Shown here in pieces: positions 13,863 through 18,902 of a DNA stretch of 50,189 nt. The stretch comes from Saprospiraceae bacterium. Its GTDB lineage: Bacteria; Bacteroidota; Bacteroidia; Chitinophagales; Saprospiraceae. The stretch spans positions 1 to 50,189 of the forward strand of contig JABSSL010000102.1 of assembly GCA_013214355.1 (NCBI GenBank), written 5' to 3'. Position numbers and translations under genes: made by a program. The notes under the pieces are model-generated. The model was not told the DNA's origin. It saw only the letters and a list, made by a program, of their open reading frames with translations, and did not search any database. How positions within the stretch are numbered: position 1 is the stretch's first letter; each line of letters begins with the position of its first letter.

Positions 13863-15797
13863 ATGGAGAACGCCATCCCGCAGCGGATCTTTGACTCCAT
13901 GCAGCAATACCCTCCTTTCTCTTTAATGAAAGATCCTGACTTGATGCGCATTGCAGAGCGCATAAGGATTCGCTTTGTAGCCAAGGATCAATGGGTGTTT
14001 CAAGCAAAAGATGCTGTTCAAAAACAGATCTACTTCGTCCAGGAGGGGGCGATTCATCTATTACAACAGCAACAGGATCCAGCGCAATTAGTAGAAGCCT
14101 GTGACCAAGGAGAGATCTTCGGGCTTGGTCCTTTGGTGGATTCTCCACATTATCAGTTAGGGGCAAAAGCAGAAGAGGACAGCCTGGTATATATCATTCC
14201 TCAAGCCATCCTGCAACCTATTATTGAAAAACAGCCAAAGGTGGCTTGGTACTTTGCTCAAAGCTTTGCAGCGGGTAAATATGCCGTTCCCAGTTCGCTA
14301 GGTCCTCCTACTCTATTTTGGCAAGAACAGCAACGACAGCAACAAGCTTTCGAACTGCTGGAAATTCAATCTATTGATCACAGTCGGAAGCCCGTCTCTT
14401 GTCTCCCGGGTACCTCTATCCAGGCTGCCGCACAGATTATGCGAACGCAAAGCGTTGGGTCGATCATCATAACAAATGAGGCTGAAAATCCTGTAGGAAT
14501 TATTACCGATCGAGATCTACGGAATAAGGTAGTTAGTGGAGATCACCCCCTATCTGATTCCGTGGATCTTATCATGTCAAAACCCGTAATTACCGTCAAG
14601 CCGGATGTAACGATTGCGGAAGTACAAATGTTCATGATGAAACACCGGATTCATCATTTGGTAATCACTCAAACTGGGCGCTCAGATTCTCTAGTACTCG
14701 GGGTGATTTCGGAACATGATCTCCTTGTCATTCAAGGTAACAACCCCGCCGTGTTAATTCGAGAAATTAGCCGGAGTAAAGATGGAGAGGAATTGGGTAG
14801 AATTCGCGGAAAAGCGGAGGGCTTACTACGAAAATATTTATATCAAGAAGTAGCTATTGGTTTCATTAGCTCCATCATGACGCAGATCAATGATGCCATT
14901 ATTGAGCGGGCCATTCTACTAGCACTAAAGGAAATGGATGAAGAGGGCAAAAAAGATCCCGGAGTAAAATGGTGCTGGTTAGCCCTGGGATCTGAGGGTA
15001 GAGAAGAACAGCTGTTAAGAACCGACCAAGACAATGCCTTGGTTTTCGAAGATGTGGATTTAGAGAGACAGGAGGAAGTCAAGGCCTATTTTTTGCAGCT
15101 GGCCAAGAAGGTAACTCGTTTTCTTTATGCTTGTGGTTTTGAGTATTGTCCTGGAGACATGATGGCTAGCAATCCTCAATGGTGCTTACCTTTGGACGCT
15201 TGGAAGAAACAATTCTCCGGCTGGATTTTTGCCCCTAGTCAGCAGCATGTTTTGTATTCCAACATCTTTTTTGATTTCCGCCCGATTTATGGAGCATTCG
15301 AGTTAGCAGAGGAATTGTCTGATCATATATTTAAAGCCACGGGCGAACGGGATATCTTCCTTTCCTTTATGGCGAAAAATGCCTTGCAAACACCCGCACC
15401 ACTCACTTTCTTTCGACAGTTTATGGTGGAGAGAAGTGGAGAACACAAGGATCAATTTGACATTAAGAGTCGGGCCATGATGCCACTAGCAGATGCCGCC
15501 AGGGTACTAATCTTAGCTGCACAAGTCCCTCAAATCAACAATACGTTTCGTCGCTTTGACAAATTGGCCGAGTTAGAGCCACAAAACCGAGCGCTGTTCG
15601 AGCAAGCTGCAGATGCTTACGAAATCTTAGTGCGTTATCGAGCGCTACAAGGGCTCAAAAATCAAACCTCTGGTCGTTATTTTAAGCCTTCGGAGCTCAG
15701 CAAGATGGAGCGCCTCAATCTACGGAACAGCTTCAAGCCGCTCCGCGAATTGCAGGACCTTCTGACGGTTCGTTTCCGCTTAAATTTCTTGATTTAA
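13863..15797 (+). CDS. CBS domain / DUF294 nucleotidyltransferase-like protein
   Basis: A 644-residue regulatory protein. Domains in order: a cyclic-nucleotide-binding-like fold (about 20-140), two CBS domains (about 165-285), a DUF294 nucleotidyltransferase-like domain (about 315-460) with motif GSEGREEQxxxTDQDNAL related to GlnD-type enzymes, and the DUF294 C-terminal helical domain (about 490-640). The phosphate-binding cassette of the first domain lacks the usual glutamate and arginine (GEIFGLGPL...YQLGA), so cNMP binding is doubtful. CBS domains usually bind adenosine nucleotides. The stop is one base before the exonuclease start; this pair is a recurrent arrangement in many bacteria. 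The targets of the nucleotidyltransferase are unknown. Confidence 0.9.
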   Translation: MENAIPQRIFDSMQQYPPFSLMKDPDLMRIAERIRIRFVAKDQWVFQAKDAVQKQIYFVQEGAIHLLQQQQDPAQLVEACDQGEIFGLGPLVDSPHYQLGAKAEEDSLVYIIPQAILQPIIEKQPKVAWYFAQSFAAGKYAVPSSLGPPTLFWQEQQRQQQAFELLEIQSIDHSRKPVSCLPGTSIQAAAQIMRTQSVGSIIITNEAENPVGIITDRDLRNKVVSGDHPLSDSVDLIMSKPVITVKPDVTIAEVQMFMMKHRIHHLVITQTGRSDSLVLGVISEHDLLVIQGNNPAVLIREISRSKDGEELGRIRGKAEGLLRKYLYQEVAIGFISSIMTQINDAIIERAILLALKEMDEEGKKDPGVKWCWLALGSEGREEQLLRTDQDNALVFEDVDLERQEEVKAYFLQLAKKVTRFLYACGFEYCPGDMMASNPQWCLPLDAWKKQFSGWIFAPSQQHVLYSNIFFDFRPIYGAFELAEELSDHIFKATGERDIFLSFMAKNALQTPAPLTFFRQFMVERSGEHKDQFDIKSRAMMPLADAARVLILAAQVPQINNTFRRFDKLAELEPQNRALFEQAADAYEILVRYRALQGLKNQTSGRYFKPSELSKMERLNLRNSFKPLRELQDLLTVRFRLNFLI

Positions 15798-16793: not shown

Positions 16794-17492
16794 GATGAGT
16801 AGTTTTAAGCAGTAAACGAATCTCTTTTCTTCATGAACGATTTCCCTTAGAATAATGATGCGAAAACCGAAAGAAATCGAACTTTCACCTTCTCCATCAT
16901 TCTAGCAAGGGACGAACATACTGAAATAGATTTTCGTACTTCAGGTAAATTAAAGAATGACCTACTTACTTAAGCTATTGATATACGATTGGTTATTGAA
17001 GGTAACTATTAATTCAGAAATAAACAAGTGTCCCAACTACTAGATCATCCCCTAAAACCGGGCTAATTATATTGATCCAGAAGTAGAATTAAACATCACA
17101 AATCACTCCTAATCAAAGCAGTACCATCCTTGGCTCCCCTACCCCTATTTCTCCTCTTAGTCGTATTTCTACCTACTATTTTCTCCAACTAGCAAGCTAT
17201 CGGACGAAATTAACAGCTCAAGGTCTGACCAGCATTGATTTGTTTCGGTTCTTGTCTTAAGTACTTTGTAACCTAAGTTCAAAGTAATATTAAGCAGATC
17301 GTCCCTGCTCCAATTATCCTGCTAAATCAAGTCCTGGAGGGCTTCCGGCTCCAAATCTCAAGGTCACAGAATCAAGCAATCCTTTCATTCACTCAAGCAA
17401 AAGATCTAAACACACAAATGCTGATGACTCTGAAACTGGAATGAAATAACTTGAAAGTATTATACCTAAGTACCTTACTCAACCCTATTGTC
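16794..17492. other. Intergenic region upstream of the cyclase gene
   Basis: About 700 bases without a supported gene. It holds the regulatory region of the cyclase gene. A 7-bp dyad TACTTTG (17262-17268) / CAAAGTA (17280-17286) is the clearest structure. I find no good -7/-33 pair. Confidence 0.5.
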
Positions 17493-18902
17493 ATGTATAT
17501 ACCAGAAAGCATTATGCATACGAGAAAACAATCCCAAACTAAAAAGACCAAAACATCGCAGGACAAGCCTCCGGTCACTACTGTGGAGTTTACAGCTGCC
17601 GAACGAACGATCAGTGTCGTAAAGGAGCAGCAAAACTTACTAGATGCTGCCGTGATTCATCGCATTCCTCATATGCAAGAGTGCGGTGGACATGGAAAAT
17701 GTACGACCTGTCGCGTCCGCATCATTGACGGTATTGACAATGTATCTCCGCGCAATGAACTGGAGACCCACTTAGCTAGTTGTCGGGAATGGGATTCCTC
17801 GGTACGACTGGCCTGCCAGACGAAGGTTCATGGCCCCGTTAAAGTGGAACGTTTAGTAAAAACCTTTGGAGACGTGAGCTTACTACAAGGAGAAGGCTTA
17901 GAGCAGAGTGGAGGGAAAGAACAGTACTTAGCTATTCTTTTCTGTGATATGCGCAATTTCACCCCCTTTGTGGAAAGTAATCTAGCCTTTGACGTCGTAC
18001 ACATTATCAATCGCTTATTCGCCGTATTGGGCGAGCCTATCCTCATGAATAATGGATTAATCTATCAATATGTGGGAGATGAGATCGTTGGTCTGTTTGG
18101 TTTGGAATCACAAACAGCGGAAGAGAGTTGTATGGCTGCCTTGCGCGCGGCTTTGGGTATGCGCACGGCTCTTCAGCAATTGAATGATGAACTGATGAGT
18201 GAATTCGGCATGGAAATCGAAATCGGAGTTGGTATCCATTTCGGACCAGTCATCGTGGGGAAAATGGGACATCCTAGTCATAGGCAATTTAGTATTATCG
18301 GAGATGCTGCCAATGTAACAAGTCGCATCCAGGCCGTCAACAAGACTATGCGTACCCAAATCTTAGCTTCGGAAGCTTTGCTTGACGAATTGCCAGAAGA
18401 AACCGTATCCGTCGGGAGGTTTAAACGCATCCCATTGAAGGGTAAAAGTCATCCCGTTCGCATCATTGAAGTTATTGGCTTCAATCAGCCCGATGACATC
18501 TTTCTCATTCAACAAAGCATGCCTTTCCTATTTGCGCATGAAAGCGCATTTGCCGCAGCATTCTACCGCCGTCTTTTCGAAAAAGCCCCACAAGCCCGAC
18601 AATTATTCAAAGGCAATATGGACCGGCAGGTAGCCCTATTAAGTCATGTCCTAAAAGGAACCGTCTACGCCCTCTGCCGTCCACAAAACCTCGTTATGGG
18701 ACTCCAAGAACTAGGTAAGAGACACATCTCCTATGGTGTCAAAAAAGAGCATTTTGCCCTGGTCAAAGAGGTGCTTCTAGAAACCTTATCTTCCAGCATT
18801 GGAAAAGGATATAACCCCTTAACTCACCAAGCCTGGGACCGCGTACTAGACATCGCCTTTCAGCAAATGCAAGTCCCCATGGATAAAGCCGATCAGGGAT
18901 AA
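17493..18902 (+). CDS. [2Fe-2S] ferredoxin - class III nucleotide cyclase - globin protein
   Basis: A 469-residue three-domain protein, numbered from the ATG at 17493 (ATG at 17514 is an alternative; a TTG lies at 17451). Residues about 29-115 are a plant-type [2Fe-2S] ferredoxin with ligands C64-x5-C70-x2-C73-x34-C108. Residues about 145-335 are a class III adenylate/guanylate cyclase with metal-binding D152 (FCDMRNFT) and D196 (YVGDE) and transition-state N274 and R278 (GDAANVTSR). Residues about 336-460 form a flavohaemoglobin-like globin with predicted proximal H411 (LGKRHISYGV). No membrane segment is seen, so it should be a soluble enzyme. The base specificity is unclear because the usual D/C position is S. 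Haem and the iron-sulfur cluster are likely inputs for O2, NO or redox state; this is inference. Confidence 0.9.
   Translation: MYIPESIMHTRKQSQTKKTKTSQDKPPVTTVEFTAAERTISVVKEQQNLLDAAVIHRIPHMQECGGHGKCTTCRVRIIDGIDNVSPRNELETHLASCREWDSSVRLACQTKVHGPVKVERLVKTFGDVSLLQGEGLEQSGGKEQYLAILFCDMRNFTPFVESNLAFDVVHIINRLFAVLGEPILMNNGLIYQYVGDEIVGLFGLESQTAEESCMAALRAALGMRTALQQLNDELMSEFGMEIEIGVGIHFGPVIVGKMGHPSHRQFSIIGDAANVTSRIQAVNKTMRTQILASEALLDELPEETVSVGRFKRIPLKGKSHPVRIIEVIGFNQPDDIFLIQQSMPFLFAHESAFAAAFYRRLFEKAPQARQLFKGNMDRQVALLSHVLKGTVYALCRPQNLVMGLQELGKRHISYGVKKEHFALVKEVLLETLSSSIGKGYNPLTHQAWDRVLDIAFQQMQVPMDKADQG

Follow-up and report, generated by a model that had tools for sequence, protein, structure and literature searches.

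A gene in the window, the 50,189-nucleotide stretch of Saprospiraceae DNA analysed here, encodes a single chain in which a [2Fe-2S] ferredoxin domain is followed by a class III cyclase domain and then by a flavohaemoglobin-type globin. Ferredoxin-cyclases and globin-coupled cyclases are each known, and their combination with a flavohaemoglobin-lineage globin in last place appears to be new: no ferredoxin-cyclase-globin protein was found in the literature that we searched, among the matches listed, and an earlier mention is possible. The parts of PMC3820574, PMC12755159, PMC4101818, PMC3287990, PMC10745434, PMC4821796, PMC10463352, PMC11203436, PMC6950321 and PMC4476040 that were available describe no such three-domain order. 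The first-pass annotation had suggested an O2/NO- and redox-gated second-messenger enzyme of uncommon domain order. The anatomy and the uncommon order were borne out; as to function, the comparative data favour a sensory role for the ferredoxin and the globin, given ligands invariant in all 20 family members, a fixed cyclase-globin spacing, the relative CyaC and three kinase-bearing forms. We are inclined, with some confidence, to read the protein as a gas- and redox-gated class III cyclase with two built-in cofactor domains.

Domains of the protein and the family that shares them

The gene and its parts are as follows.

17493..18902, plus strand: whole gene, ferredoxin-cyclase-globin protein of 469 aa, probably soluble (open reading frame, Pfam, equivalent start in L009)
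17601..17828, plus strand: [2Fe-2S] ferredoxin domain, residues 37-112, with Cys64, Cys70, Cys73 and Cys108 (Pfam Fer2 6e-9; PDB ferredoxin matches; Cys invariant in 20 of 20)
17829..17921, plus strand: ferredoxin-cyclase linker, residues 113-143 (C108 to D152 is 44-45 positions in 20 of 20)
17925..18452, plus strand: class III cyclase domain, residues 145-320, with D152, D196, N274, R278 and Q192 (Pfam 1.1e-16; Foldseek 2w01 7.6e-16; residue table)
18444..18566, plus strand: junction of cyclase and globin, from K318 to Y358 (always 40 positions, 20 of 20 homologues)
18558..18869, plus strand: flavohaemoglobin-type (3/3) globin with Tyr358 B10, Phe372 CD1, Gln379 E7 and His411 (presumed F8) (Pfam 3.3e-13; phmmer 3s1i 7e-15; invariant in 20 of 20)

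The reading frame opens with an ATG at 17493 and its stop codon ends at 18902. An alternative in-frame TTG at 17451 would give 483 residues; in L009, an uncultured Lewinella protein 96% identical to ours, the ATG sits at the position equivalent to 17493. The Fer2, Guanylate_cyc and Globin matches, the last at residues 356-459, all exceeded the Pfam gathering scores, in agreement with the three domains that had been assigned to this frame, and an NCBIfam scan of the 469-residue protein gave no family above its cut-off. The sequence ahead of the ferredoxin contains no hydrophobic segment, which makes a soluble protein probable. The AlphaFold2 model of the whole chain had a mean pLDDT of 82.9 and a pTM of 0.82; residues 1-25, which differ in length and letters among homologues, stayed below 50.

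The four cluster cysteines, previously noted as a complete set, are spaced C-x5-C-x2-C-x34-C as in PF00111 ferredoxins, and a [2Fe-2S] cluster is predicted. The PDB matches of this domain were headed by a photosynthetic NDH subunit, followed by putidaredoxins and [2Fe-2S] ferredoxins; 3ah7 is one of the matches. For the cyclase domain, Cya2 (2w01) was closest both by sequence and by fold (Foldseek E 7.6e-16, TMt 0.88). With its family match, its fold, the two metal aspartates (D152 and D196) and the Asn/Arg pair (N274 and R278), all four residues confirming the earlier reading, the domain belongs among the class III nucleotidyl cyclases (PF00211) and is predicted to be active. The residue at the position of the substrate-selecting lysine, Q192, had escaped the first-pass annotation.

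The nearest PDB neighbours of the globin by phmmer were Hell's Gate globin I (HGbI, 3s1i, 7e-15) and then HGbRL (3wfw), with flavohaemoglobins lower, which upholds the earlier description of this domain as flavohaemoglobin-like. In the alignment to 3s1i, Y358 falls on Tyr29 (B10) and Q379 on Gln50 (E7), Phe CD1 is present, and H411, which fits the proximal histidine noted before, pairs with the histidine that HGbI has in this motif, a position which we take to be F8. These residues and the family match make the domain a flavohaemoglobin-type (F) globin that is predicted to bind haem. Tyr29 and Gln50 of HGbI hydrogen-bond the distal ligand, according to passages of PMC11203436. The globin E helix holds a further histidine, H385 (18645-18647), which 19 of the 20 three-domain proteins share, L032 having Gln instead; two of the kinase forms described below have Asp at this site and the third has Gly. 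To our knowledge the H385 site is no haem-ligand position.

The search for the same domain order in other genomes, which had been proposed as a check, returned 19 further ferredoxin-cyclase-globin proteins with the key residues unchanged. A scan of contigs gave 21 loci: 14 full three-domain proteins (L009-L022), L023, whose contig ends inside its cyclase, the membrane ferredoxin-cyclase L024, and the cyclase-only L025-L029. Genome searches added L031, L032, L036 and L037, and the genome of the window itself holds a paralogue, L002, 44% identical, which brings the family to 20 sequences, two of them from this genome. A chance open reading frame or an assembly chimera would account for the fusion in a single protein, and the genome is a draft of 224 contigs; we found no support for either, the three domains are all significant, and the order recurs in 19 other proteins with residues unchanged, so that chance or assembly error can be excluded with near certainty.

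The 20 proteins form one clade (support 99/99) in a ferredoxin-cyclase tree of 45 proteins. Their alignment is invariant at C64, C70, C73, C108, D152, Q192, D196, D271, N274 and R278, and also at the haem-pocket positions Y358, F372, Q379 and H411. The distance from K318 (Arg in L031) to Y358 does not vary either. All of L009-L022 belong to Bacteroidota apart from L021, from a Polyangia bin, and L019, from a bin labelled Thalassovita (Pseudomonadota). L019 is nested in the tree among Cytophagales-type members and is thus perhaps misbinned or transferred.

The ferredoxin-cyclase-globin order is rare. In the phylum of the window, 5 of 395 genomes matched the family profile at 1e-60: G000 (the window's own), G118 and G340 have all three domains in order, and G140 and G320 lack the globin. 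In its class, 6 of 395 matched at 1e-40: G000, G118, G654 and G672 have the full order, G320 lacks the globin and G655 has a cyclase only (G000, G118 and G320 are common to the two samples). Within the class of G340, that genome was the sole match among 146. The phylum of the L021 genome yielded four matching genomes of 235, namely G778 with one three-domain and one two-domain protein, G983 with a two-domain protein, and G1001 and G1014 with kinase forms. In the class of the L024 genome 47 matches at 1e-55 came from 46 of 190 genomes, and 46 of these matches end at or before about the first residues of the globin; the exception, L086, carries two in-frame stops. The genome searches score part of the first-look candidates, and therefore these counts are lower bounds. 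Left out of the counts over proteins are L023, the cyclase-only L025-L029, L086, and the 27 of the 47 L024-class matches that came without a locus. In a plasmid collection 166 records matched, none covering 80% of the query.

A haem pocket of this kind raises the alternative that the protein is mainly an NO dioxygenase or redox enzyme, in which the ferredoxin would feed the globin haem as the FAD reductase of flavohaemoglobin does and the cyclase would report turnover or be unregulated. The Tyr B10/Gln E7/His F8 pocket is that of flavohaemoglobin-type globins; the best partial NCBIfam match is NO-inducible flavohemoprotein (NF009805), far under its cut-off (41.8 bits versus 432); and globins are known to occur together with reductases in multi-domain proteins (PMC3820574, in part). 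The C-terminal FAD/NAD reductase of Hmp is absent. A PF00042 search of the window's genome listed the two fusion globins and no other globin, but this search found none in G778, where a direct scan shows one, and so the count may be incomplete. Position 421, presumably flavohaemoglobin Tyr G5, is Phe in the window protein and L009, as against Tyr in the other 18 of the 20. A loose detoxifying tail would need neither the invariant cyclase residues nor the fixed spacing that all 20 proteins have, and we consider this alternative unlikely.

The CyaC relatives and the substrate site

The closest studied relative that we found is CyaC. According to passages of PMC4821796, 30 alpha- and beta-proteobacterial sequences form a cluster of class IIIb cyclases that have a ferredoxin and, presumably, a dihaem-b anchor. 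In the parts of PMC10463352 that bear on it, Sinorhizobium meliloti CyaC carries two bound haem b, is depicted with a [2Fe-2S] cluster and responds to the quinone redox state; its activity is redox controlled, and oxidation can activate it (PMC10463352 and PMC4821796, both in part). Our comparison was with 18 relatives labelled CyaC-type by length and match, rather than with the CyaC sequence itself. At least four hydrophobic segments precede the ferredoxin in 16 of these 18 (L085 has three and L081 one), whereas all 20 three-domain proteins have none. Against the candidate stretches, L024 was 32% identical over residues 17-324 (E 1e-48), and between three-domain and CyaC-type proteins the ferredoxin averaged 38% identity and the cyclase 32%; the ferredoxin-cyclase module is homologous to that of the membrane ferredoxin-cyclases. 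The span from C108 to D152 is 43-44 positions in 18 of 18 CyaC-type proteins and 44-45 in 20 of 20 three-domain proteins, and these near-equal spans indicate a ferredoxin-to-cyclase geometry common to both groups.

Both CyaC and the window protein have a [2Fe-2S] ferredoxin and a class III cyclase, with haem (predicted in the window protein) and cluster in one chain. They differ in that the haems of CyaC lie in a six-transmembrane dihaem-b membrane domain, while the window protein has no such anchor and carries a C-terminal globin; the CyaC-type relatives examined have no globin, and the window family has Gln for the substrate Lys. The window family has either replaced CyaC-like membrane haems or never had them.

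The kinship with CyaC also allows that the ferredoxin alone is the switch, a CyaC-like redox input, the globin being a passive haem or structural domain. The almost identical linker length in CyaC-type proteins would fit, as would the existence of two-domain ferredoxin-cyclases without a globin (L033, L034, L065, L073 and L075). A passive globin is harder to reconcile with haem-pocket residues that are invariant in 20 of 20 proteins and a cyclase-globin spacing of 40 in every one of them, and globins of the same lineage recur in Myxococcota fused to kinases, PAS and other modules. We hold a ferredoxin-only switch to be improbable.

At the substrate position, alignments show Glu in the guanylyl cyclase Cya2 (2w01) and Lys in the related chain 6fht. 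All 20 three-domain proteins have Gln there (Q192), compared with Lys in 17 and Gln in one of the 18 CyaC-type proteins, and Lys in three, Asn in four, Glu in one and Asp in one of nine two-domain proteins. At the partner position, 267, all 18 CyaC-type proteins have Thr, but the 20 three-domain ones vary (Ser 7, Ala 7, Thr 3, Gly 2, Cys 1). The purine-selecting pair of adenylate cyclases is Lys plus Asp/Thr. The window family lacks this pair, though cAMP is still a possible product, and it also lacks the Glu of guanylate cyclases such as Cya2. With Gln in place of the purine-selecting Lys and position 267 variable, the sequence does not allow the product to be predicted. Another cyclase, from a mycobacterium, has a Gln/Asn pair and reportedly makes cAMP. 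The idea that Gln192 sets the globin-bearing family apart was weakened by its presence in one CyaC-type protein and in L004 and L007, two other cyclases of the same genome, in the first of which the motif IYQYVGDEIV recurs.

Q192 and the variable position 267 also mean that cyclase activity is not assured, and the protein might be a sensor scaffold with an inactive cyclase, as in the kinase forms. Degenerate sites do occur among relatives (the three kinase forms and L131-L134). Set against this, all 20 proteins retain both metal aspartates, D271, N274 and R278, and L004 and L007 share the Gln; we regard an inactive cyclase as very unlikely. The two-domain ferredoxin-cyclases L131-L134 have Asn at the substrate site, Gly for D271 and Asp for the catalytic N274, and are possibly inactive.

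Kinase forms and a proposed mechanism

Three proteins carry a protein kinase ahead of a ferredoxin, a cyclase-like region and a globin.

L072:1459-3840, minus strand: Ser/Thr kinase-ferredoxin-degenerate cyclase-globin, 793 aa
L074:1498-3894, minus strand: Ser/Thr kinase-ferredoxin-degenerate cyclase-globin, 798 aa
L130:1489-3822, minus strand: Ser/Thr kinase-ferredoxin-degenerate cyclase-globin, 777 aa

They occurred in 2 of the 235 genomes sampled from the L021 phylum, and a kinase-form profile matched 2 of 183 genomes of one order, G1014 being common to both samples. All three have lost both metal aspartates, D271 and N274, and L072 and L074 have also lost R278 (L130 has Arg in that column), but the four cysteines, Tyr B10, Phe CD1, Gln E7 and His F8 are kept in every one. 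Of the 18 ferredoxin residues that are invariant in the three-domain family, each of the three forms keeps 17; of the 17 such globin residues they keep 17, 15 and 15, but of the 36 in the cyclase 17, 13 and 9. Residues kept in all three at once number 16 of 18, 13 of 17 and 7 of 36, respectively. An alignment without L130 gave 17 ferredoxin, 15 globin and 10 cyclase residues kept in both L072 and L074. Identity between these two is 60% for the ferredoxin, 53% for the globin and 34% for the cyclase. Among the 20 three-domain proteins, on average, the cyclase is more conserved than the globin by 7 points. For the middle region of L072 the predictor still gave a cyclase fold (pLDDT 85.9), with 2w01 as the top Foldseek match (2e-11), though its input alignment included active-type relatives. 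Degenerate cyclase sites extend beyond the kinase forms to the two-domain L131-L134; L130-L134 appear in the residue table only and are absent from the trees.

Since the kinase forms keep the cofactor ligands beside a dead cyclase site, the cofactor domains look sensory, and we read these proteins as a sensor kept while its original output died. A single fusion origin for the cyclase and kinase forms is neither supported nor rejected: a free globin tree places the kinase forms apart from the 20, but does not reject one clade (p-AU 0.073). In the same tree L032 leaves the 20 by joining a very long branch, and its placement is doubtful. The spacing from K318 to Y358 in the kinase forms is 36-40, depending on the alignment. 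Other proteins of the L021 phylum join flavohaemoglobin-lineage globins to kinases (in L118 and L127 with an alpha/beta hydrolase as well), to PAS (L111, which by eye also seems to have a chemoreceptor region), to a P450 (L117) and to leucine-rich repeats (L116, by eye); L114 is a further globin fusion.

The gas- and redox-gated cyclase that we prefer might work as follows. The N-terminal ferredoxin would relay redox state to the cyclase through the linker of fixed length, a role that its homologous module may also have in CyaC. The globin, coupled rigidly to the other end of the cyclase, would bind O2 and react with or bind NO at its Tyr B10/Gln E7 haem. With a relay on one side and a rigidly coupled O2/NO-binding domain on the other, cyclic-nucleotide output would depend on electron supply and on O2/NO. 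Class III cyclases generally dimerise, and the active form is most likely a homodimer. That the ferredoxin may reduce the globin haem in cis, a possibility raised in the first-pass annotation, is a guess: NO would oxidise the ferrous-oxy haem and the ferredoxin would re-reduce it, making one chain both an NO sensor and a slow NO dioxygenase. In the literature that we searched we found no purified member and no cofactor, ligand-response, redox-response or product measurement for any member.

A more far-reaching reading, which we hold only tentatively and think doubtful, is that of a self-contained transducer: electrons from the cluster would reset the haem in cis and the cyclase fold would act as an allosteric relay, with cyclic-nucleotide output in Bacteroidota and, in Myxococcota, where the active site is dead, the same sensor driving an N-terminal Ser/Thr kinase. 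If true, this would define a class of haem and Fe-S gas/redox sensors with swappable outputs, and the window family would show the re-use of a sensor for kinase output.

Among known systems, soluble guanylate cyclase is likewise a haem-gated class III cyclase; it has an H-NOX haem domain instead of a globin, is a heterodimer and lacks an Fe-S cluster. HemAC-Lm of Leishmania and the bacterial globin-coupled diguanylate cyclases combine a globin and a nucleotide-cyclising enzyme in one chain, as a proposed O2 sensor. In these the globin precedes the output, the globin family or the cyclase class is another, and no ferredoxin is known. HemAC-Lm is presented as a globin-coupled cyclase in part of PMC12755159. 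The window protein falls outside the classical S-family globin-coupled sensors, its globin being C-terminal and nearest in the PDB to HGbI and HGbRL. With flavohaemoglobins, HGbI and HGbRL it shares the 3/3 globin lineage by sequence, and with HGbI the Tyr B10/Gln E7 pocket, but none of these has a cyclase, flavohaemoglobin has an FAD reductase rather than a ferredoxin, and HGbI is a single domain. HGbRL, a globin with a Roadblock/LC7 domain, is treated as a putative globin-coupled sensor in passages of PMC4476040, and its fusion shows that the flavohaemoglobin lineage can join a signalling domain. Cyclases under the control of haem (soluble guanylate cyclase) or of redox cofactors (CyaC) are central models of how gases and redox state are sensed. 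In the window family, where the predicted cofactors flank the catalytic domain of a small, probably soluble protein, the sensing of electron supply and of O2/NO could be separated in one purifiable chain, which would also open up cyclic-nucleotide signalling in Saprospirales and Cytophagales.

Genomic neighbourhood

The window gene stands alone: the roughly 1 kb that precedes it is non-coding or belongs to the opposite strand, and the open reading frame that follows also lies on the opposite strand. An all-against-all comparison of neighbouring reading frames at 24 loci, many with short flanks, revealed no partner gene shared across distant members, and a conserved operon was therefore discarded. 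The window's genome has 62 cNMP_binding matches (57 over the cut-off) and 13 cyclase matches, and the cNMP-binding proteins are candidate receptors. One of them, at 13863-15797, about 1.7 kb upstream of the cyclase and followed by an exonuclease gene, combines cNMP-binding, CBS and DUF294 nucleotidyltransferase domains. The phosphate-binding stretch of cNMP-binding domains usually has an Arg, which by eye seems to be missing here. A counterpart beside the cyclase was present in L009 only, so there is no case for this protein as a dedicated receptor.

By similarity, a Response_reg-LytTR gene lies near the cyclase at 6 of the 24 loci (L011, L012, L020, L023, L036 and L037); Pfam confirmed it in the four that were scanned (L012, L020, L036 and L037), and it is directly upstream on the same strand in two (L036:377-1192 and L037:541-1302). 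The comparison of neighbouring frames showed none beside the window gene, and the proximity may reflect only the general abundance of such genes. A TetR-family gene, L002:886-1488, runs up to the exact start of the paralogous ferredoxin-cyclase-globin gene. In S. meliloti, CyaC acts together with the TetR-like regulator CycR, as stated in part of PMC10463352; phmmer found no similar gene beside other members, and we dropped a CycR-like partner.

A conserved small protein of about 173 residues is encoded directly downstream of the cyclase in three loci (L011:9397-9921, L012:9387-9908 and L037:2860-3378). The globin-less ferredoxin-cyclase L033:1483-2409, with Glu at its substrate site, follows a methyltransferase gene and a low-molecular-weight phosphatase-family gene, a pair that by eye resembles ArsM and arsenate reductase.
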